Positions 7,510-31,943 of a stretch of 64,000 nucleotides of DNA are shown in pieces (within the stretch, counting starts at the first letter, position 1; the number at the start of each line of letters is the position of its first letter). The position numbers and the translations under genes are program-made. Source of the stretch: an uncultured Acidobacteriota bacterium (GTDB taxonomy: Bacteria; Acidobacteriota; Vicinamibacteria; Fen-336). Below the pieces are notes generated by a model, which was not told where the DNA came from, made no database searches, and saw only the letters and a program-made list of their open reading frames with translations. The stretch is taken from contig CADEEV010000010.1 in NCBI GenBank assembly GCA_902826455.1, forward strand, positions 54,387-118,386, given 5' to 3'.

Positions 7510-9270
7510 ATGCTCATCCTGCCCGCCGTAGCACTGCTCGCCGTGGCCCAGGCGACCCCGATCCAGGACCGGGCCGACCGCTTTCTGGAGATCGTCAACG
7601 CGTCCTACAAGTCGCTGGTCTACGTCACGAGCCAGGCGCAGTGGGACGCGGCGACCGACGTGACGCCCGAGCACGACGCGGCGTCGGAGACGGCCAGCCG
7701 CTCCCTGGCGGCGTTCACCGGCAACCCGGCGCTCATCAACGAGGCGAAGGCCTTGCTGGCGCAGAAAGCCGAGCTCAAGCCGATCACCGTCCGGCAGCTC
7801 GAGCGCGTGCTCCTGAACGCGGCCGAGGCGCCGATGACGAACCCCGACCTCGTGAAGGCGCGCATCGCCGCCGAGACCGCGCAGTCGTCGACCCTCAACA
7901 GCTTCGAGTTCAAGCTCGACGGCAAGAAGATCACGACCAACGAGATCGACAGCCTGCTCGAGACCAGCAAGGACCTGAAGCAGCGCCAGGCGATCTGGGA
8001 GGCCTCGAAGCTCTCGGGGGTCGCCCTCAAGCCCGGCCTCGTGAAGCTGCGCGGCCTGCGCAACGGCGTCGCGAAGGAGCTGGGGCACCCGGACTACTTC
8101 GCGCTCCAGGTCGCGAACTACGGGATGACCACCGACGAGATGGTCAAGCTGCAAGATCAATTCATGAAGGAGCTGCGGCCGCTCTATCTGCAGCTCCACA
8201 CCTACGTGAAGTACGAGCTCGCGAAGAAGTACGGGCAGCCCGTGCCGAAGCGCATCCCGGCCCACTGGCTCACGAACCGCTGGAGCCAGAACTGGACCGG
8301 CCTCGTCGACGGCGCCAACATCGACGACCGGTTCGCCGGACGATCGCCCGAGTGGGTCGTGAAGTCGGCCGAGGAGTTCTACAAGGGCTTGGGCTTCCCG
8401 GCGCTGCCGGCGACGTTCTGGGAGCGCTCCGATCTCTACCCGCTCAAGCCCGGTGACCCACGCAAGAAGAACACCCACGCGTCGTGCTGGCATCTCGACC
8501 TCGAGAACGACATCCGCTCGCTGATGAGCGTCGAGCCCAACAGCCGCTGGTTCGAGACGACGCACCACGAGCTCGGCCACGGCTACTACTTCATGAGCTA
8601 CACCCGGCCCGAGGTGCCGCCGCTGCTGCGCACGGGGGCCAACCCGGCGTTCCACGAGGCCATGGGCTCGCTGATCGGCCTCGCGGCTGGCCAGGTTCCC
8701 TACCTGCAGCAGGTCGGGATCCTGCCGGGCGACTACAAGGCCGACAAGATCGCGTTCCTGCTGAACGACGCGCTGTCGAACGCGGTGCCCTTCATCTATT
8801 GGTCGTCGGGCACGATGACCCACTGGGAGGCCGACGTGTACGCGAAGGGCCTGCCCGAGGACCAGTGGAACGCGCGCTGGTGGCAGTACGTGCGCGAGCT
8901 GCAGGGTGTCGAGCCGCCGAGCGATCGGGCCGAGACCTTCTGCGACGCCTGCACCAAGACCCACATCAACGACAACCCGGCGTACTACTACTCCTACGCG
9001 ATCGCCAACGTGCTCGTGTTCCAGATGCACGATCACATCGCCCGCAAGATCCTGCACCAGGACCCGCGCAGCTGTAACTACGCGAACAACAAGGAAGTCG
9101 GCGCGTGGCTCAAGGGCGTCATGGAGAAGGGCGGCACCGAGGACTGGCGCAAGGTGCTGCGCGAGGCGACGGGCGAGGATCTCTCGACGCGGGCCATGGT
9201 CGCTTACTTCGCGCCGCTCATGACGTGGCTGCAGGAACAGAACAAGGGGCGTCCGATCGGCTGGGAGTAG
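7510..9270 (+). CDS. M2 family peptidyl-dipeptidase (bacterial ACE homologue), exported
   Basis: A 586-residue zinc metallopeptidase of the angiotensin-converting-enzyme family, which removes C-terminal dipeptides from oligopeptides. The N-terminal LPAVALLAVAQA stretch is a signal peptide, giving a periplasmic or secreted enzyme. The zinc motif H-E-L-G-H is at residues 353-357, with the downstream N-P-A-F-H-E-A-M-G segment supplying the third ligand glutamate. The length fits single-domain bacterial members. Family features include WNARWWQYVRELQGV and the region with conserved acidic and Tyr residues near YYSYAIANVLVFQMH. It begins 48 bases beyond tRNA-Arg in the opposite direction and its 3' end overlaps the convergent TPR gene by 53 bases. 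Confidence 0.93.
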   Translation: MLILPAVALLAVAQATPIQDRADRFLEIVNASYKSLVYVTSQAQWDAATDVTPEHDAASETASRSLAAFTGNPALINEAKALLAQKAELKPITVRQLERVLLNAAEAPMTNPDLVKARIAAETAQSSTLNSFEFKLDGKKITTNEIDSLLETSKDLKQRQAIWEASKLSGVALKPGLVKLRGLRNGVAKELGHPDYFALQVANYGMTTDEMVKLQDQFMKELRPLYLQLHTYVKYELAKKYGQPVPKRIPAHWLTNRWSQNWTGLVDGANIDDRFAGRSPEWVVKSAEEFYKGLGFPALPATFWERSDLYPLKPGDPRKKNTHASCWHLDLENDIRSLMSVEPNSRWFETTHHELGHGYYFMSYTRPEVPPLLRTGANPAFHEAMGSLIGLAAGQVPYLQQVGILPGDYKADKIAFLLNDALSNAVPFIYWSSGTMTHWEADVYAKGLPEDQWNARWWQYVRELQGVEPPSDRAETFCDACTKTHINDNPAYYYSYAIANVLVFQMHDHIARKILHQDPRSCNYANNKEVGAWLKGVMEKGGTEDWRKVLREATGEDLSTRAMVAYFAPLMTWLQEQNKGRPIGWE

Positions 9271-10351
9271 CCCCGGCGTCGGCCAGCGTGCGCTTCAGCA
9301 GATCGCACGCGGCCTGCGTGGGACGCAGCGTGTAGTTGTGGCGGGCGAGGGCGAGGGCGCGTTGCGCGTCGCCGCCGGGGTTCAGCCAGAACTCGGCCGC
9401 GTGATCGGCGAACGCGTCGGGGTGCGCCGCTAGCAGCTCCTCGAAGCGCGCCGCGGCCTTGGCCTTCCAGGCGTCGGACTCGGCCTTGCGGCCGACCTCG
9501 GCGAGCACGCGGGCCAGGTGGCCCGCCGGGTCCGGATCGTCGGACTCGCTGGCGGCTTCGGTCAGTAGCGCAATGGCCACGTCCTTGTGGCCGAGCGCCG
9601 CCTCGGTCTCGCCCAGATGGCCCGTCGCGGCGGCGTACTGAGGCAGCCGGTCGTGGGCGGCCTGGAAATGGTCGCGCGCTTCGGCCATGCGTCCGCGCTG
9701 CATGAGCTGCCGGCCTTCCTGGAAGTCGAGCCAGGCGAGCGGGAACGGCGAGACGTCGCGGTACACCGTGCGCGCCTGCGCGAAGAGCCGTGCCGCCTCG
9801 ACCGCGTCGCCCTCCTCGCCGCGGAACGTCGCGAGGTTGCCGATCGTCAGGATGCCTGGACGGCCCTCGGCCGCGGCCCGGCGCGTGGCAAGGGCCTCGG
9901 CGTAGCGGCCCCGGGCCTGGGCGACGCCGGCACGCACGCCAGCCACGGCCGAACGATCGGCGCCGCACTGCTCGGCCCTTGCCGCGTCGGACAGCGCGTC
10001 GTCGAAGCGGTGGAACGTCGAGCGGGTGCGGGCGCGCGCGAGCCAGGCCGCGGCGTCCTTCGGGTGCTGGGCCACCAGGCGCTCCGCCAGCGCGTCGGCC
10101 TTCTCGTAGTCGGCGATGCGCCCCAGGAACTGTCCGCGCATCGAGACCTGGTCGATGAGGCCGGAGATCTCGCCGACCGACGCGGTGCCGGCGGCGACGA
10201 GCTCCTCCACGCTCGCGATGCCCTGGATCAGGTTGCCGACGGCGATCGCGGGATCGGTCGTGGCCGGGACGGGAGAGGAAACGACCGCAGGCTCCGGAGC
10301 GGGCCGGCAGCCTGCGGCGAGAACGACGAGGGCCAGCGTCAGGCGCCGCAT
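9218..10351 (-). CDS. TPR lipoprotein, cassette A third gene
   Basis: A 377-residue predicted lipoprotein (signal LVVLAAG then Cys15). After a Pro-rich linker it holds about five to seven tetratricopeptide-like helical pairs between residues 60 and 330 (for example LAERLVAQHPKDAAAWLARA and RDHFQAAHDRLPQYAAATGH), so it is likely a protein-protein interaction scaffold facing the periplasm. It starts one base after the stop of the DUF4331 C-half gene and closes cassette A. Its paralogue at 11818-12969 has the same architecture and much identical sequence (GLIDQVSMRGQFLGRIADYE is shared exactly). The 3' end overlaps the M2 peptidase gene by 53 bases. Partner and function are unknown; genetic linkage points to the DUF4331 proteins. 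Confidence 0.85.
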   Translation of the reverse strand: MRRLTLALVVLAAGCRPAPEPAVVSSPVPATTDPAIAVGNLIQGIASVEELVAAGTASVGEISGLIDQVSMRGQFLGRIADYEKADALAERLVAQHPKDAAAWLARARTRSTFHRFDDALSDAARAEQCGADRSAVAGVRAGVAQARGRYAEALATRRAAAEGRPGILTIGNLATFRGEEGDAVEAARLFAQARTVYRDVSPFPLAWLDFQEGRQLMQRGRMAEARDHFQAAHDRLPQYAAATGHLGETEAALGHKDVAIALLTEAASESDDPDPAGHLARVLAEVGRKAESDAWKAKAAARFEELLAAHPDAFADHAAEFWLNPGGDAQRALALARHNYTLRPTQAACDLLKRTLADAGATPSRSDAPCSVPAATS

Positions 10352-10352
10352 G

Positions 10353-10967
10353 CTACGGGTTGGGAGTCGCGAGGTAGGGGAACGCGGTGAGGGAGGCCGT
10401 GCCGTCCTCGTCCTTCGCGACGCCGTCGGTCACGCCCGAGAGCGCGCCGGCCGCGAGCAGGGAATAGGTCTCGTCGATCGTGTCCTCGAGGGGCGTGCGG
10501 CCGCCGCAGTCGGTGTTCGTGATGCCCAGCGCGTCGGCTTCCACCGCGAGGTACGTCGTGCAGGTGCCCGAGCTCGTGTTCACGTAGAGCTGGTCGTCGG
10601 CGAGCACGCCGCTCAGGGCGTCGTAGCGGCCGGCACGGGGACTGCCGGCGGCCAGCAACTGGTTGCCGCACACGGTATCGAGGCTGTCGAGGATCGCCAG
10701 GTTCGGCGTCATCGTGGGCACGAACTGCGCCCACTGCGTCGACGACGCCGAGGCGTTGTACGTGTCCTGGGCGCGGCCATGGCTCGTGGCGTCGGGGTTG
10801 AAGGGATCCGTGACGGCGGTGTTCACGCCGGCGCGGCCCATGCGGTCGATCTGAGTGCCCAGGGACGGCGGGTTCGCACGCCGGTCGTCGTCGCTCTCGG
10901 AGCTGCAGGCGCCCAGGGCCAGCAGGCACGTCACGCTCGTCAGGGTCAGGAGTCGTGTCATGGTCAT
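10353..10967 (-). CDS. DUF4331 C-terminal half as a separate lipoprotein, cassette A second gene
   Basis: A 204-residue protein with a lipoprotein signal (LLALGA then Cys21). The mature part begins with IDRMGRAGVNTAV, which in ordinary DUF4331 proteins lies in the middle of one longer polypeptide, and ends with TPLEDTIDETYSLLAAG. Conserved cysteines occur in DTVCGNQLLA, SSGTCTTYL and TDCGGRTP. The whole domain is thus split between this gene and the one before it, each with its own export signal. The same split exists in cassette B. The gene starts three bases after the DUF4331 N-half gene ends, and a single base separates it from the TPR gene, so the three are very probably one operon. DUF4331 has no assigned biochemical function. 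Confidence 0.8.
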   Translation of the reverse strand: MTMTRLLTLTSVTCLLALGACSSESDDDRRANPPSLGTQIDRMGRAGVNTAVTDPFNPDATSHGRAQDTYNASASSTQWAQFVPTMTPNLAILDSLDTVCGNQLLAAGSPRAGRYDALSGVLADDQLYVNTSSGTCTTYLAVEADALGITNTDCGGRTPLEDTIDETYSLLAAGALSGVTDGVAKDEDGTASLTAFPYLATPNP

Positions 10968-10970
10968 CTC

Positions 10971-11687
10971 CTAGGACTTCCGGTTGGTGCTGCCCCAGAC
11001 GGAGAGCACCGGGCCGTTGGCAGTGAGCAGGCTCTTGTCGACGTCGACCACGATCGACAGGACGTTCAAGCGCCCGAAGTCGTCGCGGGCCGGGGTGCCG
11101 CCGGCGCCGGACTTGAGCTGGCTCACGAGCACGCCCGAGGTCGCCTTGTCGAGGGCCGGGCAGCCGGCCGCGTCGAAGTCTAGAGAAGCCGCGGCGCCCT
11201 CCACGATCTTGGCGGTCTCCTTGAAGCCCGTGAGGTTGAAGAAGAACGGGTCGTTGCGCAGGCCCGCGTAGACCTTGAGGCGTCCGTCCTCCGACGCGAG
11301 GCCGGCGGTCGGGCTCGCGTCGCCCTTCACGAAGGCCTGGTTCCCGACCCAGCAGGACACGAGCCCCACCCGATCGAACTCGCAGATCACGTTCACTTCG
11401 CTGCCGGCGGCGGCGCCGAAGGCGGACCGGCTGCTCGTGTGGAACACGTACTGCACCTGGTTCGAGAACCGGGACTCCGGACCCGCGGCCCGGACGAGAT
11501 CCATCACGAGGTGCACGTCGTTGGCGTCGGGGGACATCCACGCGAACACGTCGGTGATATCCGCGGCTGGATCGGCCGAGGCGGCGGGGCCGTCGGCGTG
11601 ATCGGCGGCCTCTACGGTCGGCCTATGCGAGACGAGGAGCCCGACGAGGGCGGCGGCCGCGAGTCCGAGCGGCAAGGCTTTCTTCAT
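10971..11687 (-). CDS. DUF4331 N-terminal half, exported, cassette A first gene
   Basis: A 238-residue protein with a Sec-type signal peptide ending near V-E-A before ADHADGP. The mature N-terminus shows the DUF4331 hallmark: an ADHxDGP opening, DPAADITDVFAW and SPD. It continues with SRFSNQVQYVFHTSS, cysteines in NVICEF and VSCWVG, and a GLRNDPFFFNLTGF segment. A textbook ribosome-binding site (AGGAGGTGA) stands just ahead of the ATG. It ends in the RDDFGRLNVLSIVV strand, where a full-length DUF4331 protein would continue into the part coded by the next gene. It is the first gene of cassette A; the paralogue is 13577-14290. Confidence 0.85.
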   Translation of the reverse strand: MKKALPLGLAAAALVGLLVSHRPTVEAADHADGPAASADPAADITDVFAWMSPDANDVHLVMDLVRAAGPESRFSNQVQYVFHTSSRSAFGAAAGSEVNVICEFDRVGLVSCWVGNQAFVKGDASPTAGLASEDGRLKVYAGLRNDPFFFNLTGFKETAKIVEGAAASLDFDAAGCPALDKATSGVLVSQLKSGAGGTPARDDFGRLNVLSIVVDVDKSLLTANGPVLSVWGSTNRKS

Positions 11688-11817
11688 GTCACCTCCTGAT
11701 CAAAGCGGTGCCGCGCGACAGGACGGTTTGCACGCGCTCGTGCGCGAACCCGTGGCGGTCGGCCCACGACAACGTCTTTGGTCGGGCTACGCGATCGGGA
11801 GGGGATTCAGATTGGAA

Positions 11818-12969
11818 CTATTCGCGGGCGTGAGATCCGTCACGTTCTCGAGCGGCGCACGGGGCGTCCGATCGGTCGGGAGCCGCGTCGGCCGCGGCCA
11901 GCGCCCGCTTGAGCAGATCGCACGCGAAGGCGGTCGGCCGCAGCGCGTAGTTGTGGCGCGCCAGCCGGAGCGCCCGCGGCGGATCGCCGCCCGGGTCGAT
12001 CCAGAACTCGGCGCCGTGGTCGGCGAAGGCGTCCTTGTGCTTGCCCAGGAGCTCGTCGAAGCGGCGCGCGGCGCGGCCCGTCCAGGCCGCGGCATCGCCC
12101 GTGCGCCCCGCCTGGCGCAGCGCGCGCGCCAGGTGCCCGGCCGGATCCGGGTCGTCCGAGGTCGTGGCGGCCTGCGTGAGCAGGGCGATCGCCGCGTCCG
12201 TGCGGCCGAGCGCGGCCTCGGCCTCGCCCAGGTGTCCCGTGGCCGCCGCGTACTGAGGCAGACGATCGTGGGCGGCCTGGAAGAACGCGCGGGCCTCCGG
12301 CCACTTCTGCCGCTGCATGAGCATCCGGCCCTGCTGGAAGTCGAGCCAGGCGAGGGCGAAGGGCGACACGTCGCGATACGACGCGCGGGCCTCCGCGAAC
12401 AGCCGCGTGGCTTCGGCGAGCTCGCCCTGTTCGCCGCGCAGGGCCGCCAGGGCGCCGAGGCTCAGGATGCCGGGCCGGCCCGTGGCCGCCGCCTGGCGTT
12501 GCGGCAGGGCCTCGTCGTATCGGCCGCGGGCCTGGGCGACGCCGGCCCGTACGGCCGTGAGCGCGGCGGCGTCGGCGCCGCGCGACTCGGCCTCCGCCGT
12601 GTCGGCGAGCGCGTCGGCGAAGCGATGGAACGTGGCACGCGTACGGGCGCGGGCGAGCCAGGCCGCCGCGTCCTCCGGATGCGCGCTCACCAGGGACTCG
12701 GCGAGGGCGTCGGCCTTCTCGTAGTCCGCGATGCGGCCGAGGAACTGGCCGCGCATCGAGACCTGGTCGATCAGCCCCGAGATCTCGTGGACCGAGGCTT
12801 GTCCCCGCGCGACGACGGCCTCGATGCTCGCGATGCCCTGGTCGAGGTTGCCGACGGCGATCCCGGGATCGGTGGTCGCTGGCTTCAGCGGCGGCGGCGC
12901 CAGGGCTACGGGCTCCGCCGCGGGCCGGCAGGCTGCGACCAGCAGCAGTGCGACGGCGAGCCGCCGCAC
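11818..12969 (-). CDS. TPR lipoprotein, cassette B third gene
   Basis: A 383-residue paralogue of the gene at 9218-10351. The signal peptide ends at Cys14 (LLLVAAC), predicting lipidation. TPR-like helix pairs fill residues 60 to 340; segments such as TFHRFADALADTAEAE and FFQAAHDRLPQYAAATGHLGEAEAALG match cassette A closely. The C-terminal DPGGDPPRALRLARHNYALRP repeat-like segment corresponds to NPGGDAQRALALARHNYTLRP in the paralogue. It begins one base after the preceding gene's stop. Presumably it works with the DUF4331 halves of the same cassette; that is inference from linkage. Confidence 0.85.
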   Translation of the reverse strand: MRRLAVALLLVAACRPAAEPVALAPPPLKPATTDPGIAVGNLDQGIASIEAVVARGQASVHEISGLIDQVSMRGQFLGRIADYEKADALAESLVSAHPEDAAAWLARARTRATFHRFADALADTAEAESRGADAAALTAVRAGVAQARGRYDEALPQRQAAATGRPGILSLGALAALRGEQGELAEATRLFAEARASYRDVSPFALAWLDFQQGRMLMQRQKWPEARAFFQAAHDRLPQYAAATGHLGEAEAALGRTDAAIALLTQAATTSDDPDPAGHLARALRQAGRTGDAAAWTGRAARRFDELLGKHKDAFADHGAEFWIDPGGDPPRALRLARHNYALRPTAFACDLLKRALAAADAAPDRSDAPCAARERDGSHARE

Positions 12970-12970
12970 G

Positions 12971-13567
12971 CTAGGGGTTGGGCGGCGCCAGGAACGGGAA
13001 CTCGGTGAGCGAGGCCCGGCCGTCGGCGTCGATGGGCACGCCGTCGTCGACTCCGGAGAGGGCGCCGGCGGCGAAGAGGGAGTAGGTCTCGTCGATCGTG
13101 TCCTCGAGGGGCGTGCGGCCTCCGCAGTCGTTGTTGTCGATGCCGAGGGCGTTGGCCTCGACCCCGAGGTAGAGCTCGCAGGTCCCCGAGCCCGTGTTGA
13201 CCCACAGCTGGTCGTCGGCCAGAACGCCCGCGAGCGCGTCGTAGCGCCCGGGAGTCGCCGTCGGCCCGGCCAGCAACTGGTTGCCGCACACGGTGTCGAG
13301 GCTGTCGAGGATGGCCAGGTTCGCCGCCATCGAGGGCGCGAAGGAGGCGAACTGGCTCTGGGGCGCCGCGTTGAAGCGGTCCTGGACGGCGCCGTGGGTG
13401 GTGGGATCGTGGTTGAAGGGGTTGGTCACCGCCGTGTTCACGCCGGCCCGGCCCATGCGGTCGATCTGCGCCCCGAGAGCCGGGGGAGCCGGGGGCGGCG
13501 CGGCCTCGTCTTCGGAGCCGCAGGCCGGGAGTAGGGCGAGGGCGGCGAGGGTCAGGAGCTTCTTCAT
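12971..13567 (-). CDS. DUF4331 C-terminal half as a separate lipoprotein, cassette B second gene
   Basis: A 198-residue paralogue of 10353-10967. Its short signal peptide ends in LLPA then Cys16, a lipoprotein pattern, followed by a Pro/Ala-rich linker. The core begins IDRMGRAGVNTAVTNPF and keeps the cysteine-bearing motifs DTVCGNQLLAG, GSGTCELYLG and NDCGGRTPLEDTIDETYSL. It follows the N-half gene after nine bases and is preceded by an AGGAGG-like site. Keeping the same split point and two different signal peptides in both cassettes argues that the fission is functional and not a sequencing frameshift. Confidence 0.8.
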   Translation of the reverse strand: MKKLLTLAALALLPACGSEDEAAPPPAPPALGAQIDRMGRAGVNTAVTNPFNHDPTTHGAVQDRFNAAPQSQFASFAPSMAANLAILDSLDTVCGNQLLAGPTATPGRYDALAGVLADDQLWVNTGSGTCELYLGVEANALGIDNNDCGGRTPLEDTIDETYSLFAAGALSGVDDGVPIDADGRASLTEFPFLAPPNP

Positions 13568-13576
13568 GGGAGCCTC

Positions 13577-14290
13577 CTAGACCTTCCGGTGGGTGCTGGC
13601 CCACACCGACACGATGCGGCCGGTCTGGGTGAGCAAGGTCTTGTCGAGGACGACGACGATGGCCAGCACGTTGAGGCGGCCGAAGTCGTCCCGCACCGGG
13701 GCGCCGTGGACCCCGGCCTTCAACTGCCTGCCCAACGCGGCGGCGGTAGCGGCACTCAGCGCCGGGCACCCCGCCGCGTCGAAGTCGAGGGACGGAGCCG
13801 CCTCCTCCACGAGCTTCGCCGTCTCCTTGAAGCCGGTCAGGTTGAAGAAGAACGGGTCGTTGCGCAGGCCGGTGAACACCTTGACCCGGCCGTCGGCGGA
13901 CTCGAGGCCGGTCGTGGCACTCGCGTTGCCGTGCACGTAGGCGGCGTTGCCGACCCAGCACGACACCTCCTGGGCCGCGTCGAACTCGCAGATCACGTTG
14001 ACTTCGGGGCTCGCTGGCATGCCGAAGCCCGTGTGGCTCGTGGTGTGGAAGACGTACTGCACCTGGTTCGAGAAGCGCGAGGCGGCGCCGGCGGCGCGCA
14101 CCACGTCCAGGACCAGATAGACCTGGTTGCTGTCGGGCGACGTCCACGCGAAGACGTCGGTGATGTCGGCGGCAGGATCCGCCGAGGCGCTGGGGCCGTC
14201 GATGTGGTCGGCGGCGCGGACGACGGGCCGGGCGATCGCGAGGGCGGAGACGATGGCGACGGCTCCGAGGCCGAGCGTGGCTTTCTTCAT
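13577..14290 (-). CDS. DUF4331 N-terminal half, exported, cassette B first gene
   Basis: A 237-residue paralogue of 10971-11687 with a Sec signal peptide ending near V-V-R-A, then ADHIDGPSASADPAADITDV. The GLRNDPFFFNLTGFKETAKL block and RDDFGRLNVLAIVV end are shared with cassette A. A strong ribosome-binding site (TGGAGGTGAC) precedes the ATG, and immediately upstream lies an 11-pair hairpin (14303-14333). It is the first gene of cassette B and therefore the likely entry point for transcription of this cassette, perhaps of both. Confidence 0.85.
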   Translation of the reverse strand: MKKATLGLGAVAIVSALAIARPVVRAADHIDGPSASADPAADITDVFAWTSPDSNQVYLVLDVVRAAGAASRFSNQVQYVFHTTSHTGFGMPASPEVNVICEFDAAQEVSCWVGNAAYVHGNASATTGLESADGRVKVFTGLRNDPFFFNLTGFKETAKLVEEAAPSLDFDAAGCPALSAATAAALGRQLKAGVHGAPVRDDFGRLNVLAIVVVLDKTLLTQTGRIVSVWASTHRKV

Positions 14291-14333: not shown

Positions 14334-14452
14334 CACTCTGGGCGGATTCGAGGGAGCGGCTTCGGGTGAGACATATCACACCTGGACCGGAACGGATCCG
14401 GCACGTGGATCGTCTCTAGTCGAAGCGTGGCCTGGTCGCGAGACGAGGGACG

Positions 14453-22150: not shown

Positions 22151-22957
22151 CTACTTCTGCTTCTTGAGGGGAAGGTCGCCGACCACGGCCTTCTGGGCCG
22201 CGATCAGCTGCTGGATGCCCTTGTCGGCCACGGCCATGAGCTGCTGCAGCTCGTCGTCGCTGAAGGGCTTCTGCTCGGCGGTGCCCTGGATCTCGACGAA
22301 CAGCCCCCGCCCGGTCTTGACGATGTTCATGTCGACCTCGGCCTTCGAGTCCTCTTCGTACGCGAGGTCGAGGAGGATCTCGCCGTTCACCTTGCCGACC
22401 GAGGTCGCGGCCACGTAGTCGAGCAGCGGCAGCTCCGTGAAGGAGCCCTGCTTCTTGAGCTGCTGGAGCGCTTCCACCACGGCCACGAACGCGCCGGTGA
22501 TGGACGCCGTGCGCGTGCCGCCGTCGGCCTGGATCACGTCGCAGTCGACCCACAGCGTGCGCTCGCCGAGGGCCTTCATGTCGATGACCGTGCGCAGCGA
22601 GCGTCCGATCAGGCGCTGGATCTCGTAGGTGCGGCCCGAGGGCCGGCCCTTCGTGGCCTCGCGTTGCATGCGCGTGCTGGTGGCGCGGGGGAGCATGCCG
22701 TACTCGGACGTGATCCAGCCCTCGCCCTTGCCCTTCAGGAACGGCGGGACGCGCTCCTCGACGCTGACGGTGCAGATCACCTTCGTGTCGCCGACCTCGA
22801 TCAGCACGGCGCCTTCGGCGTGGCGCGTGAAGTGCGGGGTGATCGCGATCTCGCGCAGCTCGTCGGGGTTGCGCCCGTCGAAGCGCGAGCCGTTGCCCTT
22901 CTTGCCGAGCACGGCCGGGTCGATCTTCAGCTTGAAGTCTCCGATCCGAAAGCTCAC
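22151..22957 (-). CDS. rph: Ribonuclease PH
   Basis: Phosphorolytic 3'-5' exoribonuclease that trims tRNA 3' ends. The 268-residue protein has the family start [32 protein letters not shown], the [17 protein letters not shown] block with RNA/phosphate-contacting arginines, [16 protein letters not shown] and the catalytic region [20 protein letters not shown]. The GTG at 22957 overlaps the stop of the lytic transglycosylase gene (GTGA). The open frame continues far upstream in a shadow of that gene, which I do not count. In many bacteria rph and rdgB are codirectional; here they are adjacent but convergent. Confidence 0.96.
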
Positions 22958-25143
22958 CGGCCCGCGCCCGCGTTGCCCGTGCGCGTGCCGCCGGCGGTGA
23001 GGTCGTAGATGCGGCGATAGTGCTCGCGGTTCGCCAGGATGATCATCACGTACTGCCTCGTCTCGGTGAAGGGAATGCTCTCCACGAATTCCTCGTCTCC
23101 CATGTCCGGGTTGCCGGCCGTCCAGGCGTCCACGCGATGGGGTCCGGCATTGTATGCCGCGAGCACGCGCTCCACACGGCCTCCGAAGCGATCCGAGAGC
23201 TGGCGCAGGTAGCGCGTGCCGAAGTCGAGGCTCACCGCGGGGTCGGTCAGCGCGCTCGACTTGTAGCGCATGCCGAGATCGCGGGCGAGGGAGCGGCCGG
23301 TGGGCGGGATGACCTGCATCAGGCCGCGCGCGCCCGCCGAGCTGACGGCGCCCGCGTTGAACGTCGACTCCTGGCAGATGAGGGCCGCGACCAGCGCCGG
23401 GTCGAGGCCTTCCTCCGCGGCCTTCTCGCGCAGGAGGTCGCCGAACTCGAGGGGATAGAGGATTCGCCACACCTCGGGGGGCAAGCGGTCGCCGGCCTCG
23501 GAGACGTGCTCGGGGTACGCGCGCTTCATGAACGTGATCGCGGGACGCAGCCGGCCCAGGCGGCTCTCGATCCACGCGATCGTGGCCTGGCCCAGCGGCG
23601 AGGGCGGGACGAGCCGCAGCTCCTCCTGGGCCTCGTCGAGCTGGTCGATCAAGAGTAGTTGGCGGACCCGGGTGAACTGCGGCTCGGGAACGTCGGCCCG
23701 CGGGTCGCTCGAGGGCCCGCTGAGCGCGGCCGGCGGCGGCGCGGGGCGCTTCGCGTAGGTCGCGAGGAGGGCCTGGGCCCGCAGGCCGTGGTAGCCGTTC
23801 TTGTAGCGTCGCACGGTCTCCTCGAGGAGCTGCCTCGACTTCTCGGACTCGCCCATCTCGCGTCGCGAGCGCGCCGCCCAGTAGAGCAGCCCGGCCGAGT
23901 ACGTGGTGGCCGGCCGCACCCGCGCCGTCCGCTCGAGGACCTGGGCCGCCTCGGCATAGCGGCCGGCGCGATACAGTCCCCAGCCCACGCGCCAGCCCGC
24001 GCGCTCCACGTAGCGTCCGTCGGGAAATCCTGCGAGCAAGCGCTGGTAGTAGGGCAGCGCCTCCTCGTCGCGCGCGTCCTTCTGGAAGTTGTTCGCGAGG
24101 GCGAGGAGCGCCTCCTCGGCCCACGGCGAGGCCGGGAACGTGGTCGCGACGCCCTCGTAGAGGTCCATCGACTTCGTCCGGAGGGCCGTGAGGCGCGCTC
24201 GGAAGAATGCGGCCTCGGCGCCGTGAGGAGACGTCGCGGCGACGCTCGCGAGCTCGGCCTCGGCTTCGCGCGTGCGGGTGAGGGCCAGGGCGCTGCGGCC
24301 GAGTCGCACGTGCACGAGGTCCATGTCGGCGGGAGACAGCGGTTTCGACTTGAGGGCGCGGAACAGCGGCGCCGCGTCCGCGTGGCGGCCGGCGTCGAAC
24401 AGGGCCAGGGCCTGGCGCAGCTGGCGCGCCAGGAGCTCGTCCGCCTTCGGCGTGCGCAGCAGCGTGCGCAAGGCGGCGAGGCGCTGCTCGACGGAGCGGG
24501 CCTGGGCGGAGGCCGGATAGTCGCGATCGAGCCGGTCGTACGCTTCGGCCGCGGCCTTCAGGTCGCGCCGGAGCTCGTGGAGGCGCGCCAGGTCGAGCAG
24601 CGCGCGCGCGGCCTGGGACGGGCACGCGGCCTGGGCGCGGGTCATGGTCTCGATGGCCTGGGGCAGGGAGCCCGAGCCCTCGAGGGCCTCGCCGGCCCGG
24701 AAGAGCGCGCTGCAGGCCACCGGGCCCTCGGGCCTCAGGTCGACCGCCGCGAGGTACGCGCCGGCCGCGCCGGCCAGCTCCTTCCGTCCCTCGAGGGCCT
24801 GGCCGATCGCGAACTGGACGCGATCGGCGAGGGCGGTGCGCTGCACGTCGGGATGCCGGAGCTCGGCGAGGGCCTGCTCCGGCTTGCGCAGCTCCACGAG
24901 GGCCAGTCCCGCGGCATAGCGGGCGAGCCCGGCCGAGACCGTGCCGGCGTGAGCCGACGCCATGCGGTCGAGGTTGTCGATCGCGCCCTCGGGGCCGGCG
25001 AAGCCGCTGTTGGCGAGGGCCTCGCGCACTGCGGCCTCGGCCGCGTCCTCGGGCGTCGGCGCCAGCCAGAAGCTGCGCGACACCGCAGGCGCGGTCCCGG
25101 CGTAGAGGAGGAACGTGACGAGCGCGGCGGTCCGAGGAACCAC
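22954..25143 (-). CDS. Soluble lytic murein transglycosylase (Slt-like)
   Basis: A 729-residue periplasmic enzyme that cleaves the MurNAc-GlcNAc bond in peptidoglycan to leave a 1,6-anhydro end. An N-terminal signal peptide is followed by about 480 residues of TPR-like helical repeats that form the superhelical U and L domains in Slt70-type proteins. The catalytic SLT domain lies at 575-710, with Glu592 in I-C-Q-E-S-T-F-N, then [13 protein letters not shown] and [15 protein letters not shown]. The product is the substrate for recycling, which fits the MurU/AmgK-like pair at 52.4-54.3 kb. It is translationally coupled to rph. Confidence 0.94.
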
Positions 25144-25178
25144 GATGACGACCGGCGTCTTCCTCTCTGGAGGGACGA

Positions 25179-26468
25179 CTACATCGCGCCGAGAGCGCTG
25201 GCGTCGCCCCCGGCGAGGATACGGACGAGCTCATCGAAGAAGTAGTTCGTGGTGTCGCGGATGCGGGCCGGCACGCGCTCGGCGTACATCTGCCGGCCGC
25301 GCTCGACGTCTTCCTTGAGGCGCTCGTAGAGGTCCTTCTGACGGCGGCCCTCGTTCACCTTCGCCTCGTTGTAGAGCTTGATCTCGCTCACCACCAGGCG
25401 CGCGAAGCGCTTCGCGTCCTCGTGGGCCTTCTGGTCCTCGGGCGCGATCGGCGCGGCCGCGGGCGCCGCGGCCGGAGCCGGAGGCGCCGCGGGGCGCGGG
25501 GCCGCCACCGGAGCCGGCGCCGCAGCGGGCGCGGGAGGCGGAGCGATGACGGGCGCCTTCTGGGGCGTGAAGGTCCCGGCCTTGAACATCACCGTCGACG
25601 ACCCTTCCTCGGCGACGGGGGGCGGCGCGGTGGGGCGGGGCACTCCGGCGCGCTCGCGGATCTCGTCGCCGCCGGCGCGGATCGCGGCCGCGCGCTCGGG
25701 CGTCGAGCCGACGCTCGTGCGCGCCGCGGCGGCCGGGGCCGTCTTCGGGACCAGGGAGAGCAGGTCGATGCTCTTGGCCGCGAACAGCACGAGCACTTCG
25801 ATCAGGTGCGCCTCGGGCCCGGGGACTTCTTCCTTGGAGCTGTCGCAGTACAGGATCGCGGCCAGCTTGTCGCGCAGGATGAGCGGCACGACGAGGACCG
25901 ACTGGGGCCGGCCGCCGAGCCGCGCCACGGCCTGGGCCGTGCCGGGCGAGTGCATGAGCGCGCCGCGCAGGGCCTGGCGCGAGTTCGAGACGTTGCGGAA
26001 GACCGTGTCCGACGCGAGCGGGACGTTCACCTGCCTGACCGCGTCGCCCGGATCGACGCCGCGCGAGTACCAGCCGATGGCGCTCGTGCCCTTCACGATG
26101 AACATCGCGGTGCGGTCGACGTACTGGGAGACCTCGTTCACCAGGTACGTGAGCACCTCGGAGAGGCTCGTGCCCTTCTCGATCTCGGCGATCGAGAGGC
26201 GCAGCTTGTCCATGCCGGGGCCGGCGAACACGGGCGGAGGAGGCAGCGGCGGGGGTTGCGCGGCCACCACTTCGGCCATCGCGGCGGCGATCTCGCCTTC
26301 GTTGATCTTCTCGTCGTAGCGCGCGACGGCCTCGGACAGCTCGTCGAGGGTCTTGACGAAGGTGCCCTGGTGCTCCTGGATCTGGCGCTGGATGTCGACC
26401 ACCCAGTTGGCCATCTGCTGGCTGATCAGCGCGAGCGCCTTCGCCTTGAGGTCGTCTTCCAGGCTCAT
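25179..26468 (-). CDS. GAF-domain protein with Pro/Ala-rich linker
   Basis: A 429-residue cytoplasmic protein. Residues 1-60 form a helical, possibly coiled-coil region; residues 80-245 fit a GAF-type sensor domain ([27 protein letters not shown]...[18 protein letters not shown]). Residues 290-345 are an Ala/Pro-rich linker, and the C-terminal 90 residues are a charged helical segment ([20 protein letters not shown]) common to acidobacterial and myxobacterial proteins of this type. There is no kinase or output domain. The ATG at 26468 is preferred over a longer frame that enters the divergent promoter region. It lies 35 bases upstream of the transglycosylase gene. Ligand unknown. Confidence 0.72.
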
Positions 26469-28532: not shown

Positions 28533-31500
28533 TCAGAAGGTCAGGCGGATCCCGAGCTGCACGGTGCGGGCGTCGGTCGTCTGGGTCAGCTGTCCGAAGC
28601 TCGCCGTGGGACGCGCGCTGAGGATCCGCGTCGCCGTCCGCGGATCGCTGGTGTCGTAGACCACGCTTTCCGGGGCATAGAGCGTGTCCTGGTTCGCGAG
28701 GAAGTTGACGGTGTCGAGGACGTTGAAGAGCTCGGCCCGGAGTTGGAGGCGGGCCTTCTTCGAGAGCCGGACGTTCTTGTAGAGCCCGGCATCCCACTGG
28801 AAGAAACCGGGCCCGTCGCAGACGTTGCGGCCCGACGTGCCGTGAGTTCCGATCGCGTAGCCGTCGATCGAGAAGGCGCCGGGATCGAGCCACTGCGTCC
28901 TGGATCCGCCGCGCGCGCGGCACCGCGCGCCCACGACGCGATTCGGCCGTTGGTTGTAGGCATAGCCCGTGCCCGAGAGGCCGGCGTAGCGGTCGAGGCC
29001 GGCCGGCGTCGCGCCGAAGACCGTGATCGGATAGCCCGTCGCCGCCTGGACGATGGAGGTGATCTCCCAGTCGCCCACAACGTGTCGGACGAAACCGGCC
29101 TGGTCTTCGAGTTTCGGCAGGCCGATCACGACGCTGGCCGTGAACGCATGCCGGCGATCGTTCCGGGTCCGGGCACGGTCGAGCCAGGGTTGTCGGCTGT
29201 CGGTATAGGGTTCCGCTTCCGCGTTGCCGATCGCCTTCGCCCACGTGTACGCGAGGCTCGCCTGTGACGCCTGGCCGAACCGGCTGACGAGCCCCGCCTG
29301 GAGCGAGTGGTAGATCGAGGAGCGGTCCTGCGTCCCGATGAGCACGTTGCTGAAGGCGGTCAGGCCCGCGACACCCGCCAAGGGGCGCAGCGCCGCTGCG
29401 CCCGTCCGCGCGAAGGCGAGGCGATCGGCGGGAGCCACCTCGTTCGCGTCGAATGCGCCCCTCAGGTCCTTCCCCCAGCTGCCGACGTAGGCCACTTCCA
29501 GCACGCTGTTGCGGACCAGCTGCTGCTGGGCGCTCAGGTTCCACTGCCAGGTGCGGGGGTTGGCGGCACGCTGCTCGAGGCCCGCGCCCGGCGTTCCCAG
29601 GAAGGGGAAGGGTTCGTCGGCCGCTGGCTCCGCAGCGGAGAGGGTCCGGTAGAGGTACGTCGATGCCGCGAACGGGGGATTGGTCCCGAGCGCGAAGCCG
29701 GGCTTGACGTTGTCGCGTTGATAGAAGAGGCCAAGGCCGCCGCGCAGCGACAGCGTTCCGTCGCCGTGGGCGTCCCAGGCGAGGCCCAGGCGCGGCGCCA
29801 CGTAGAGGAGCTTCATCGGCACGAGCGACCGGTTCGGCCCGTCCGCGCCGCCGGCCACGCCGAGCGCGGGACAGGGGTTCGTGCCGGGAGGAAAGAGCAG
29901 GCCATTGCAGGGCGAGTCGCCCGCCGCCGCGTCGATGGCTGCAGGGTCGAAGCTGGCGAAGGCATCGTCCGCCTCGTAGGGCGCCGTGAGGTGGGTCAGG
30001 CGGAAGCCGTAGTCCGCGGTCAGGCGAGGCGTGAGCTTGTGCGAGTCGGCCGCGTAGAGCTCGATGTCGTTCCAGCGCTGTCGCACCTTCTTGTTCGTGC
30101 GCATCTCGCCCGCGTCCCAGACGGTCTCGGCCAGCAGCCAGTCGGCGATGTGATTGCCGGTGACCGGGCCCCGGACGAAGCCGTTCGGCCCGAGGAAGCC
30201 CACAGCCCCATAGGCGACCATCGATTCCTGGCTCGTGTTGGCCGCCTGCTCATTCTTCTCGTTGTAGCTGAGAAGGAAGCCGGCCTTGAGGAAGTGCCTG
30301 CCGAACACGGCCGAGACGTCGTCCTTGAGCACGAACAGCTGCTGGCTGTTCTTCCAGGGCGCCTGGTTCAGGAGCGCGCCGTCGGCGTACGGGAAGATCG
30401 CGCTTCCGAAGGCCGCCGGCTGGGCCGCTCCCCGCTGCTCCTTGAGGCTGGCCGGGTACAGGGTCGGGATGGCGGCGTTCAGTCGCCGGACGAGGTCGGG
30501 GTCGTCACCGCCGCGCTCGACGGCGATCGCGTTCGACGAGTAGGAGAACGTCAGGGCGTTCACGAGGCTCGCCCCGATGTTCCGGTTCAGCTGCGCGACC
30601 AGCGATCGGCCCGGCTGGTACCAGTCCGACGCCACGACCGGAAACGGATCGTCGCCCCACAGGTTGGTGTTGGCCGCGGCCCAGCGGTCCTGGGTGTAGC
30701 GCAGCATGACGCGCGTGCTGTCGGTGAGCGCGTAGTCGACGCGCCCGTGCCACTGACTCCACTCCACCGGCGTCGGTACGGCCGCGATGTAGTTGGCGCA
30801 ACTCTCGCGTGACGGTGTCGCGTTCGGAAGGGACATGAGCTGCATCATGAGCAAGCCACCCGGACTCAGGCGATCCTCGGGGATCACGTTTCCGGGGAAC
30901 GGCCGGCCTGTCAACGGATCCACGGGCAGCGGGTCCGCGCATTCGGGGCGAGCGCCGTCGAAATCGCCGACGCGCTCCGCCGCCGACGGCACCTGCGAGA
31001 CGCGGATGCTGCTGCGAGCGTCCTCGTTCCGCTCGAAGGACACGAAGATGTGCAACTTCCTCGTGACGACGGGGCCGCCCAGCGTGGCGCCGAAGTCGTC
31101 CCAGTGCAGGGGAGCCGCGCCCTGCTCCTGCCGCTTCCAGAAGTAGTCCGCCGCGTTCCACCGGTCGCGGCGCGCGTAGTAGTAGCCGCTGCCGTGGAAC
31201 TCGTTGCCGCCGCCGCGCGTCACGACGTTGACCTGGGCGGCGCCGGCGCCGCCGAACTCGGCGCCGTAGTTGTTGCGGTGGATCTTGAACTCCTCGATCG
31301 CGTCGAGCGAGGGATACACGAGGATGCTGGTGTTGGAGCCGACGTCGTTGTTGTTCGCGCCGTCGACGAGCCAGAGGTTGCCGGTCGTCTGGCCGCCACC
31401 GACCGAGATGGCCACACCTCCGGAGAGGCCCTTGTCCTTCGTGTTCAGTCCTTGTTGCGCCGTGACGCCCGGTTGGAGAAGGGTGAGCTGCAGGAAGTTC

Positions 31501-31943
31501 CGGCCGTTGAGCGGCAGCTCGCGCGCCTGCTCACCGCTCACGAGGCCGGCGATCTCGGCCCCGACGGTCGTCACGGCCACCGCCGGGACCTCGACCTCGA
31601 CGACCTCGCTGGCCTGGCCCGCCTGCAGCTGCACGTCGACCACCCGCACGTCCGCGACGTTGAGGACGATCCCGCCGCGCGCCTCGGACCTGAAGCCGGC
31701 CGCTGCGACCTCGATCCGATAGTGGCCGACGCGCAACTCCGGGAACGAGTAGATTCCCGACGAGTTCGTGACCGCGGATCGGGTATCGCCGGTGTCCTCG
31801 TTCCTGGCCGTGACGCTGATCGCTGCCATGGCGGCGCCGAGCGGGTCCGTGATGGTGCCGCGGACGGAGGCGGCGATGCGCTGCGCGACGGCGGTCATGG
31901 CCGGGAGAACGAGCACGGCCGCGAGCCACCAGGTCTTCCACAT
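28533..31943 (-). CDS. Oar-like TonB-dependent receptor
   Basis: A 1136-residue outer-membrane protein. A signal peptide (AAVLVLPAMTAVAQ) is followed by a carboxypeptidase-regulatory-like beta-sandwich (about 25-110: VRGTITDPLGAAMAAISV...ELRVGHYRIEV), a plug domain (about 125-240, with ELPLNGRNFLQLTLLQPGV and NVVTRGGGNEFHGSGYYY) and a large barrel ending in LGIRLTF with a terminal Phe. This architecture belongs to the Oar family, expanded in Acidobacteriota and thought to import oligosaccharides or other large substrates. Its ribosome-binding site (TAGGAGGG) includes the stop codon of the upstream kinase gene, nine bases away, so the two are translationally linked. Ligand unknown. Confidence 0.93.
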   Translation of the reverse strand: MWKTWWLAAVLVLPAMTAVAQRIAASVRGTITDPLGAAMAAISVTARNEDTGDTRSAVTNSSGIYSFPELRVGHYRIEVAAAGFRSEARGGIVLNVADVRVVDVQLQAGQASEVVEVEVPAVAVTTVGAEIAGLVSGEQARELPLNGRNFLQLTLLQPGVTAQQGLNTKDKGLSGGVAISVGGGQTTGNLWLVDGANNNDVGSNTSILVYPSLDAIEEFKIHRNNYGAEFGGAGAAQVNVVTRGGGNEFHGSGYYYARRDRWNAADYFWKRQEQGAAPLHWDDFGATLGGPVVTRKLHIFVSFERNEDARSSIRVSQVPSAAERVGDFDGARPECADPLPVDPLTGRPFPGNVIPEDRLSPGGLLMMQLMSLPNATPSRESCANYIAAVPTPVEWSQWHGRVDYALTDSTRVMLRYTQDRWAAANTNLWGDDPFPVVASDWYQPGRSLVAQLNRNIGASLVNALTFSYSSNAIAVERGGDDPDLVRRLNAAIPTLYPASLKEQRGAAQPAAFGSAIFPYADGALLNQAPWKNSQQLFVLKDDVSAVFGRHFLKAGFLLSYNEKNEQAANTSQESMVAYGAVGFLGPNGFVRGPVTGNHIADWLLAETVWDAGEMRTNKKVRQRWNDIELYAADSHKLTPRLTADYGFRLTHLTAPYEADDAFASFDPAAIDAAAGDSPCNGLLFPPGTNPCPALGVAGGADGPNRSLVPMKLLYVAPRLGLAWDAHGDGTLSLRGGLGLFYQRDNVKPGFALGTNPPFAASTYLYRTLSAAEPAADEPFPFLGTPGAGLEQRAANPRTWQWNLSAQQQLVRNSVLEVAYVGSWGKDLRGAFDANEVAPADRLAFARTGAAALRPLAGVAGLTAFSNVLIGTQDRSSIYHSLQAGLVSRFGQASQASLAYTWAKAIGNAEAEPYTDSRQPWLDRARTRNDRRHAFTASVVIGLPKLEDQAGFVRHVVGDWEITSIVQAATGYPITVFGATPAGLDRYAGLSGTGYAYNQRPNRVVGARCRARGGSRTQWLDPGAFSIDGYAIGTHGTSGRNVCDGPGFFQWDAGLYKNVRLSKKARLQLRAELFNVLDTVNFLANQDTLYAPESVVYDTSDPRTATRILSARPTASFGQLTQTTDARTVQLGIRLTF

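Follow-up and report, generated by a model that had tools for sequence, protein, structure and literature searches.

Tandem Two-Chain DUF4331 Proteins with a Predicted N-Terminal X-X-His Sequence: Putative Envelope Metal Capture in an Uncultured Acidobacteriota Bacterium

A 64,000-nucleotide stretch of an uncultured Acidobacteriota genome (assembly GCA_902826455.1, contig CADEEV010000010.1, positions 54,387 to 118,386), hereafter the window, carries two tandem three-gene cassettes on its minus strand, B at 9218-11687 and A at 11818-14290, each in the order half 1, half 2 and tetratricopeptide repeat (TPR) lipoprotein. The original prediction held that in both cassettes a DUF4331 domain (Pfam PF14224; we take its InterPro number to be IPR025566) is encoded by two consecutive genes, the first with a Sec signal and the second with a lipobox, with the TPR gene one base on. 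The gene coordinates agree with this in both cassettes, the spacing between half 2 and the TPR gene being one base in A and B alike. Why is one domain made as two chains, and what would the assembled protein do? With moderate confidence, we propose from sequence that the assembled two-chain DUF4331, present in two tandem copies with TPR lipoproteins, likely captures Cu(II)/Ni(II) in the envelope through an X-X-His sequence at the predicted mature N terminus of half 1. The features concerned are as follows.

13577..14290, minus strand: cassette A half 1 of DUF4331 (237 aa), Sec-type signal; PF14224, 67.3 bits
14204..14212, minus strand: cassette A half 1, codons of the predicted mature N terminus, Ala-Asp-His (X-X-His); His in 120/120 half-1 proteins
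12971..13567, minus strand: cassette A half 2 of DUF4331 (198 aa), lipobox; no Pfam match alone
13520..13522, minus strand: cassette A half 2, lipobox cysteine codon
11818..12969, minus strand: cassette A TPR lipoprotein (383 aa, GTG start)
10971..11687, minus strand: cassette B half 1 of DUF4331 (238 aa), Sec-type signal; PF14224, 73.1 bits
11598..11606, minus strand: cassette B half 1, codons of the predicted mature N terminus, Ala-Asp-His (X-X-His); His in 120/120 half-1 proteins
10353..10967, minus strand: cassette B half 2 of DUF4331 (204 aa), lipobox; PF14224 252-421, 27.4 bits, cut-off 27
10905..10907, minus strand: cassette B half 2, lipobox cysteine codon
9218..10351, minus strand: cassette B TPR lipoprotein (377 aa)

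The Halves Cover Complementary Parts of One Predicted Domain

Half 1 of cassettes B and A scored 73.1 and 67.3 bits against PF14224, above the Pfam cut-off of 27, and half 2 of B matched PF14224 positions 252-421 with 27.4 bits, 0.4 over the cut-off. Half 2 of A alone gave no Pfam match, so the Pfam model accepts both half-1 proteins, half 2 of B barely and half 2 of A not at all. The complementarity of the halves claimed in the original prediction was borne out by profile comparison, in which the half-1 family aligned to columns 10-255 of 19 one-chain DUF4331 proteins with 99.7% probability; for the half-2 family, the aligned columns of these proteins were 273-443, with 96.0% probability. By these sequence comparisons, half 1 and half 2 cover complementary parts of DUF4331. 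The window proteins also carry H3, D19, G369 and R370, which are invariant over the 40 rows of a full-length alignment; earlier alignments that mixed half-1-only and half-2-only rows were misaligned and were dropped. NCBIfam holds no family for half 1 or half 2 of B, and a PDB sequence search with half 1 of B found no relative (best E 0.69). The TPR proteins scored 29.2 and 33.4 bits for TPR_19, above the Pfam cut-off of 25. Lipobox-like cysteines of half 2 and the TPR proteins were assigned by eye; the lipobox of half 2 in cassette A, LPAC, is not canonical, and the half-2 lipobox cysteine is kept in 118/119 half-2 proteins with a residue at that position.

AlphaFold2, given mature half 1 and half 2 joined as a read-through pair together with the 40-row alignment, returned a model with a predicted template modeling score (pTM) of 0.89 and a mean predicted local distance difference test score (pLDDT) of 85.6. 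Its low spots are the linker with the half-2 signal, where the ten-residue mean pLDDT is 54-62, and two other blocks at 61-63. A natural one-chain member (L102) was predicted with a pTM of 0.90 and has its main strands and helices in the same order as the read-through pair. In the model, the split lies in the loop between strand 200-209 and strand 251-256, so that the final strand and the helical part would come from half 2. Thus, half 1 and half 2 are predicted to form one domain. Of the envelope complex proposed originally, the union of the halves gains support from this model, and the TPR gene follows closely; the TPR scaffold and the two ligands suggested for the two versions are hypothetical.

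Each half has three invariant cysteines, found in 120/120 half-1 and 120/120 half-2 proteins. All six are kept in the split and fused rows of the alignment, except in the divergent L016, and are absent from nearly all one-chain rows. The odd number of cysteines per half suggests an interchain disulfide, which may staple half 1 to half 2.

The Mature N Terminus Is Predicted to Begin with X-X-His

Over 40 diverse full-length rows, split and one-chain, just one histidine is invariant (40/40), that at position 3 of the predicted mature protein. Among proteins bearing the motif, His falls at +3 after a site fitting the −3/−1 rule for signal peptidase in 117/118 half-1 proteins, 9/9 split half-1 proteins from the fetched loci and 42/45 one-chain proteins. 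The motif pattern was unmatched in 2/120 half-1 proteins, which are too short before the motif, in 2/11 split half-1 proteins from the loci (L011, with an internal start called, and L013, with a variant after ADH) and in 12/57 one-chain proteins. By eye, these 12 comprise six in which a good site is followed by SSH or ADH, four without a signal (MSDH twice, MADH and MSHH), one with its start cut off (L055) and one half 2 (L016). Signal-less DUF4331 members begin MSDH, MADH, MSHH or MSNH, and removal of the initiator Met would therefore again yield X-X-His.

When any acceptable cleavage site was allowed, X-X-His was obtained for 116/117 half-1 and 47/52 one-chain proteins with a scorable site, versus 23/297 other genes of the same loci, 1/40 TPR and 3/115 half-2 proteins. 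This rule replaced one that took the first site and picked early sites (His at +3 in 20/68 DUF4331 or half-1 proteins versus 8/203 others). The sequence recurs in 30/30 Myxococcota loci of a later sample, many of them close relatives, and, as read by eye, in 23/25 distinct Pseudomonadota genes from 30 loci, the other two (L241 and L244) being unreadable; in that tally the only reading under which L240 fits is Ser-His-His, and the gene at L245 is that of L006 again. All ten plasmid records fetched, from Actinomycetota, Pseudomonadota, Cyanobacteriota and Bacteroidota, also have it by eye, the start of the Rhizobium plasmid DUF4331 having been re-read at an internal Met.

An amino-terminal Cu(II)- and Ni(II)-binding (ATCUN) site needs a residue other than proline at its second position. 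In the tallied tags, position 1 is A/S and position 2 mostly D/S/N, with no proline. NH2-X-X-His is the ATCUN sequence, a Cu(II)/Ni(II) motif, according to excerpts of PMC7701195 and PMC12509749, and both half-1 proteins of the window would present it at their mature N termini, as judged from sequence and the cleavage predicted by the −3/−1 rule.

TPR Genes and, at Some Loci, Permease Genes Neighbor DUF4331

DUF4331 occurs in 63/396, 56/195 and 22/398 genomes of three samples. A TPR gene lies on the same strand within 300 bases of 32/55 one-chain DUF4331 genes, versus 23/523 other genes of the same loci. The conserved set is thus wider than the split pair plus TPR initially described: the one-chain form with a TPR neighbor, in some cases also with a HupE/UreJ or NicO permease gene, is commoner than the split form in the samples. 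DUF4331 and TPR genes are in frame across a single stop only at L021, L022 and the incomplete L076.

In the window's phylum, HupE_UreJ_2 (PF13795) was found at 11/64 fetched DUF4331 loci, versus 0.19 expected from its density in the same genomes, and it occurs in 36/63 genomes with DUF4331 versus 83/333 without. One split locus, L005, has it as well. We took 20 Myxococcota loci with longer flanks and counted 19, leaving out L211, which has no called DUF4331 gene; 16/19 have a TPR gene nearby on either strand and 7/19 a full-length HupE_UreJ_2, in gene orders that include TPR-HupE-DUF4331 and DUF4331-TPR-HupE. At L202 of this sample, HupE is present as a 77-residue fragment only. In the 30-locus Myxococcota sample, the HupE match at L185, counted at first, was judged spurious. 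Pseudomonadota loci, with short flanks, have TPR matches at 15/30. Plasmids carry the orders DUF4331-TPR-NicO (Streptomyces and Nostoc), DUF4331-HupE_UreJ (Rhizobium), DUF4331-small gene-TPR-HupE (Marinobacter and Pseudoalteromonas) and DUF4331-TPR (Adhaeribacter and Miltoncostaea); neither TPR nor permease stands beside DUF4331 on those of Jannaschia, Methylocystis and Streptomyces NBC_01497.

His1 follows the signal in 12/12 HupE copies from one set of DUF4331 loci, a check of HupE starts showed HKPSDSYL at 14/17 loci with matches, and five permeases from plasmid loci also begin with His1, including NicO of Streptomyces and Nostoc and HupE_UreJ of Rhizobium. HupE/UreJ and NicO are Ni/Co permease families, as stated in excerpts of PMC2667541.

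As a separate observation, genes for extracytoplasmic function (ECF) sigma factors and anti-sigma-type proteins adjoin split loci L007 and L014 and the Pseudoalteromonas operon. ECF sigma/anti-sigma pairs, the latter ChrR-like cupin, RskA or annotated anti-sigma factor, lie at L014:3325-4436, L007:313-1718 and L161:2636-3852. Their position beside DUF4331 operons suggests envelope or metal-stress control.

Proposed Function and Competing Explanations

We consider envelope metal capture likely because X-X-His is nearly universal at the predicted front end of the protein and because many relatives stand beside nickel/copper-type importers. Half 1 would display the ATCUN tag as its mature N terminus, and the metal would be chelated by the N-terminal amine, two backbone amides and His3, as in ATCUN sites. 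Half 2 would complete the fold, and its lipid anchor would tether half 1, so that the N-terminal site would be on one chain and the anchor on the other. The TPR protein may help assembly or hand-over, and the metal would then go to a permease of the inner membrane; in the window's genome, this would be one other than HupE_UreJ_2. That genome encodes a NiFe-hydrogenase large subunit and therefore has a likely use for nickel. DUF4331, originally described as having no known activity, is hereby narrowed to a testable putative metal-binding role on the strength of X-X-His and its permease neighbors.

More tentatively, DUF4331 as a whole could be a widespread envelope and cytosolic metal-capture family, its conserved ATCUN tag exposed either through Met removal or through signal-peptidase cleavage, and its partners a TPR protein and HupE/UreJ or NicO permeases tipped with His1; the lineage of the window would then have a disulfide-stapled two-chain device with tag and lipid anchor on separate chains.

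Several points weigh against metal capture by this route. No permease stands beside cassette A or B, HupE_UreJ_2 was not found in the window's genome, and NicO appears there only below threshold, other importer families not having been searched. Within the stretch examined, 53/64 loci of the phylum lack HupE, and it was found at 0/30 Pseudomonadota loci with short flanks. The cleavage sites come from the simple −3/−1 rule and not from SignalP. For members of the SSH type, the rule passes a cut behind SS as well, which would leave His1; such a cut is not possible for ADH-type members, including the half-1 proteins of the window. The first ten residues are modeled at a mean pLDDT of only 74-75 in both the read-through pair and L102. 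In L016, a split member that branches early, two of the three half-1 cysteines stand in the aligned columns, and those of half 2 are missing. Finally, Asp16, Asp19, Arg255, Arg370, Asp375 and Asp378 are about as conserved as the histidine (37 to 40 of 40 rows), and these residues could form a different site.

These conserved residues underlie one alternative, in which D16, D19, R255, R370, D375 and D378 of both halves make up a catalytic or Ca-type metal site, with the N-terminal His as one ligand and no free ATCUN tag. Their near-invariance over the 40 rows and their division between the two chains are consistent with such a site. However, tag positions 1 and 2 vary as a free tag would allow (A/S, then mostly D/S/N) and lack proline at position 2, which fits ATCUN, and we regard the alternative as unlikely. 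We likewise assign a low probability to DUF4331 being a β-sandwich of the CBM9/DOMON type with a sugar, haem or other organic molecule as its ligand, its conserved His and Asp residues serving only to build the fold or the pocket. Fold searches gave no clear match, only weak β-sandwich matches with CBM9 among them, and a sugar- or haem-binding role is therefore possible.

The Split Is Conserved and Older Than the Duplication

In other genomes, at loci found by a half-2 search, half 1 directly precedes half 2 at 12/12 loci and a TPR gene directly follows half 2 at 8/12, the TPR gene of L008 being on the other strand. The half-1 stop codon at these loci is TGA in ten, TAA in one and TAG in one, and half 2 is in frame with half 1 at only 4/12, about chance level. 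Further split pairs are L218 and L219, both with TPR, and L243 and L249. Homologs of matching length number 948 among 7998 candidates scored for half 1 and 1486 among 4699 candidates for half 2. Half 1 ends with TAG in cassettes A and B alike; this stop codon is in frame with half 2 and overlaps an AGGAG-type ribosome site. Although this arrangement would suit an assembly error, a pseudogene or programmed read-through, such an origin is extremely improbable, given the same pair at all 12 other loci with three different stop codons and frame kept at only four, the half-2 signal of its own with a lipobox cysteine in 118/119 proteins, and the 1486 half-2-sized homologs. Because the stop codons differ and frame is kept at so few loci, we rejected read-through and frameshift, and the possibility raised with the original prediction, that an assembly frameshift made the split in both copies, does not hold.

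In a midpoint-rooted tree of 78 proteins, 14 split pairs and three fused proteins (L115-L117) form one clade with support of 0.86, or 1.0 without L016. The fused proteins are nested within the split clade, and therefore re-fusion or more than one fission occurred. Window copies A and B, with 70% identity between their half-1 and 70-71% between their half-2 proteins, are sisters (support 1.0) among the tree sequences and lie inside the split clade. The split is accordingly older than the duplication and has been maintained, as had been claimed, and two-chain DUF4331 adds a new variant to a known family. A search of the window's genome found no further DUF4331 gene.

L115-L117 appear to be re-fusions without an internal lipoprotein signal, and by eye each has an α/β-hydrolase-like gene just upstream.

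Flanking Genes and Other Features of the Window

The neighbors of the cassettes, an M2 peptidase gene on one side and an open reading frame (ORF) without a Pfam match on the other, are on the opposite strand; since these flanking genes run the opposite way, cassettes A and B stand alone. The peptidase M2 gene (angiotensin-converting-enzyme family; 7510-9270, plus strand) and the cassette B TPR gene lie tail to tail and share 53 bases at the 3′ end of the latter.

GTGA-N6-TCAC palindromes, which we take to be possible CRP/FNR-type operators, occur three times in the window versus 0.61 expected, and at least three occurred in 3/100 shuffles. Two of the three are about 143 (11830-11843) and about 76 (14366-14379) bases upstream of half-1 genes and are offered as leads only.

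11830..11843, no strand: GTGA-N6-TCAC palindrome upstream of cassette B, inside the 3′ end of TPR A; lead only
14366..14379, no strand: GTGA-N6-TCAC palindrome upstream of cassette A; lead only

Elsewhere in the window, a 1027-codon ORF (22151-25234, minus strand) matches RNase PH only at residues 792-1005; its first 790 residues have no Pfam match at 1e-5, and it is either an over-long frame or an unusual fusion. A large outer-membrane β-barrel protein with a carboxypeptidase-regulatory-like domain (PF25183, PF13620) is encoded at 28533-31943 (minus strand).

Relation to Known Systems and Significance

One-chain DUF4331 (PF14224) resembles the split form in family, N-terminal X-X-His, frequent TPR neighbor and predicted order of elements; unlike the split form, it is a single polypeptide, nearly always without the six cysteines, and has no second signal between the halves. 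ATCUN sites such as that of serum albumin, as described in excerpts of PMC7701195, share the NH2-X-X-His tag with DUF4331, where metal binding is putative.

The anglerases offer a further parallel. According to the accessible part of PMC12537917 (Nat Commun 2025), Ang-1 and Ang-2 have an Ig-like domain fused to a HupE/UreJ-2 permease, with an N-terminal His1 freed by signal peptidase, and the His1 domain binds Cu and Ni in what is proposed to be metal fishing. Anglerases share with DUF4331 an N-terminal histidine exposed by cleavage, which for DUF4331 is predicted, and such permeases neighbor DUF4331 at a share of loci. They differ in that anglerases have His1 and a permease fusion, whereas DUF4331 has His3 and is a separate, larger protein. 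Indeed, both half-1 proteins of the window place His at mature position 3 by the −3/−1 rule, not at position 1, and the halves match only PF14224 or nothing in Pfam, with no HupE/UreJ-2 fusion. HupE/UreJ and NicO permeases likewise neighbor DUF4331 at a share of loci; the window's genome is without HupE_UreJ_2 and has NicO below the cut-off.

Neither the name DUF4331 nor the accessions PF14224 and IPR025566 were found in the open literature searched, most subscription papers and all supplements being outside that search. The accessible text of PMC12537917, the sole anglerase paper in that literature, mentions neither DUF4331 nor "tetratricopeptide." A metal role for DUF4331 is thus a new hypothesis, and one with strong support at the level of sequence.

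If it is correct, the novelty lies in a bacterial ATCUN tag that is conserved across a whole family and occurs beside permeases, and the N-terminal X-X-His class would join the newly described N-terminal-His metal-capture proteins. An unexplained TPR partner would be tied to HupE/UreJ-type permeases. The X-X-His rule gives the DUF4331 family a precise and cheap test, and with the split form, reconstitution can be tested on two chains that occur naturally. With envelope metal capture, this large nameless family would gain its first testable function.

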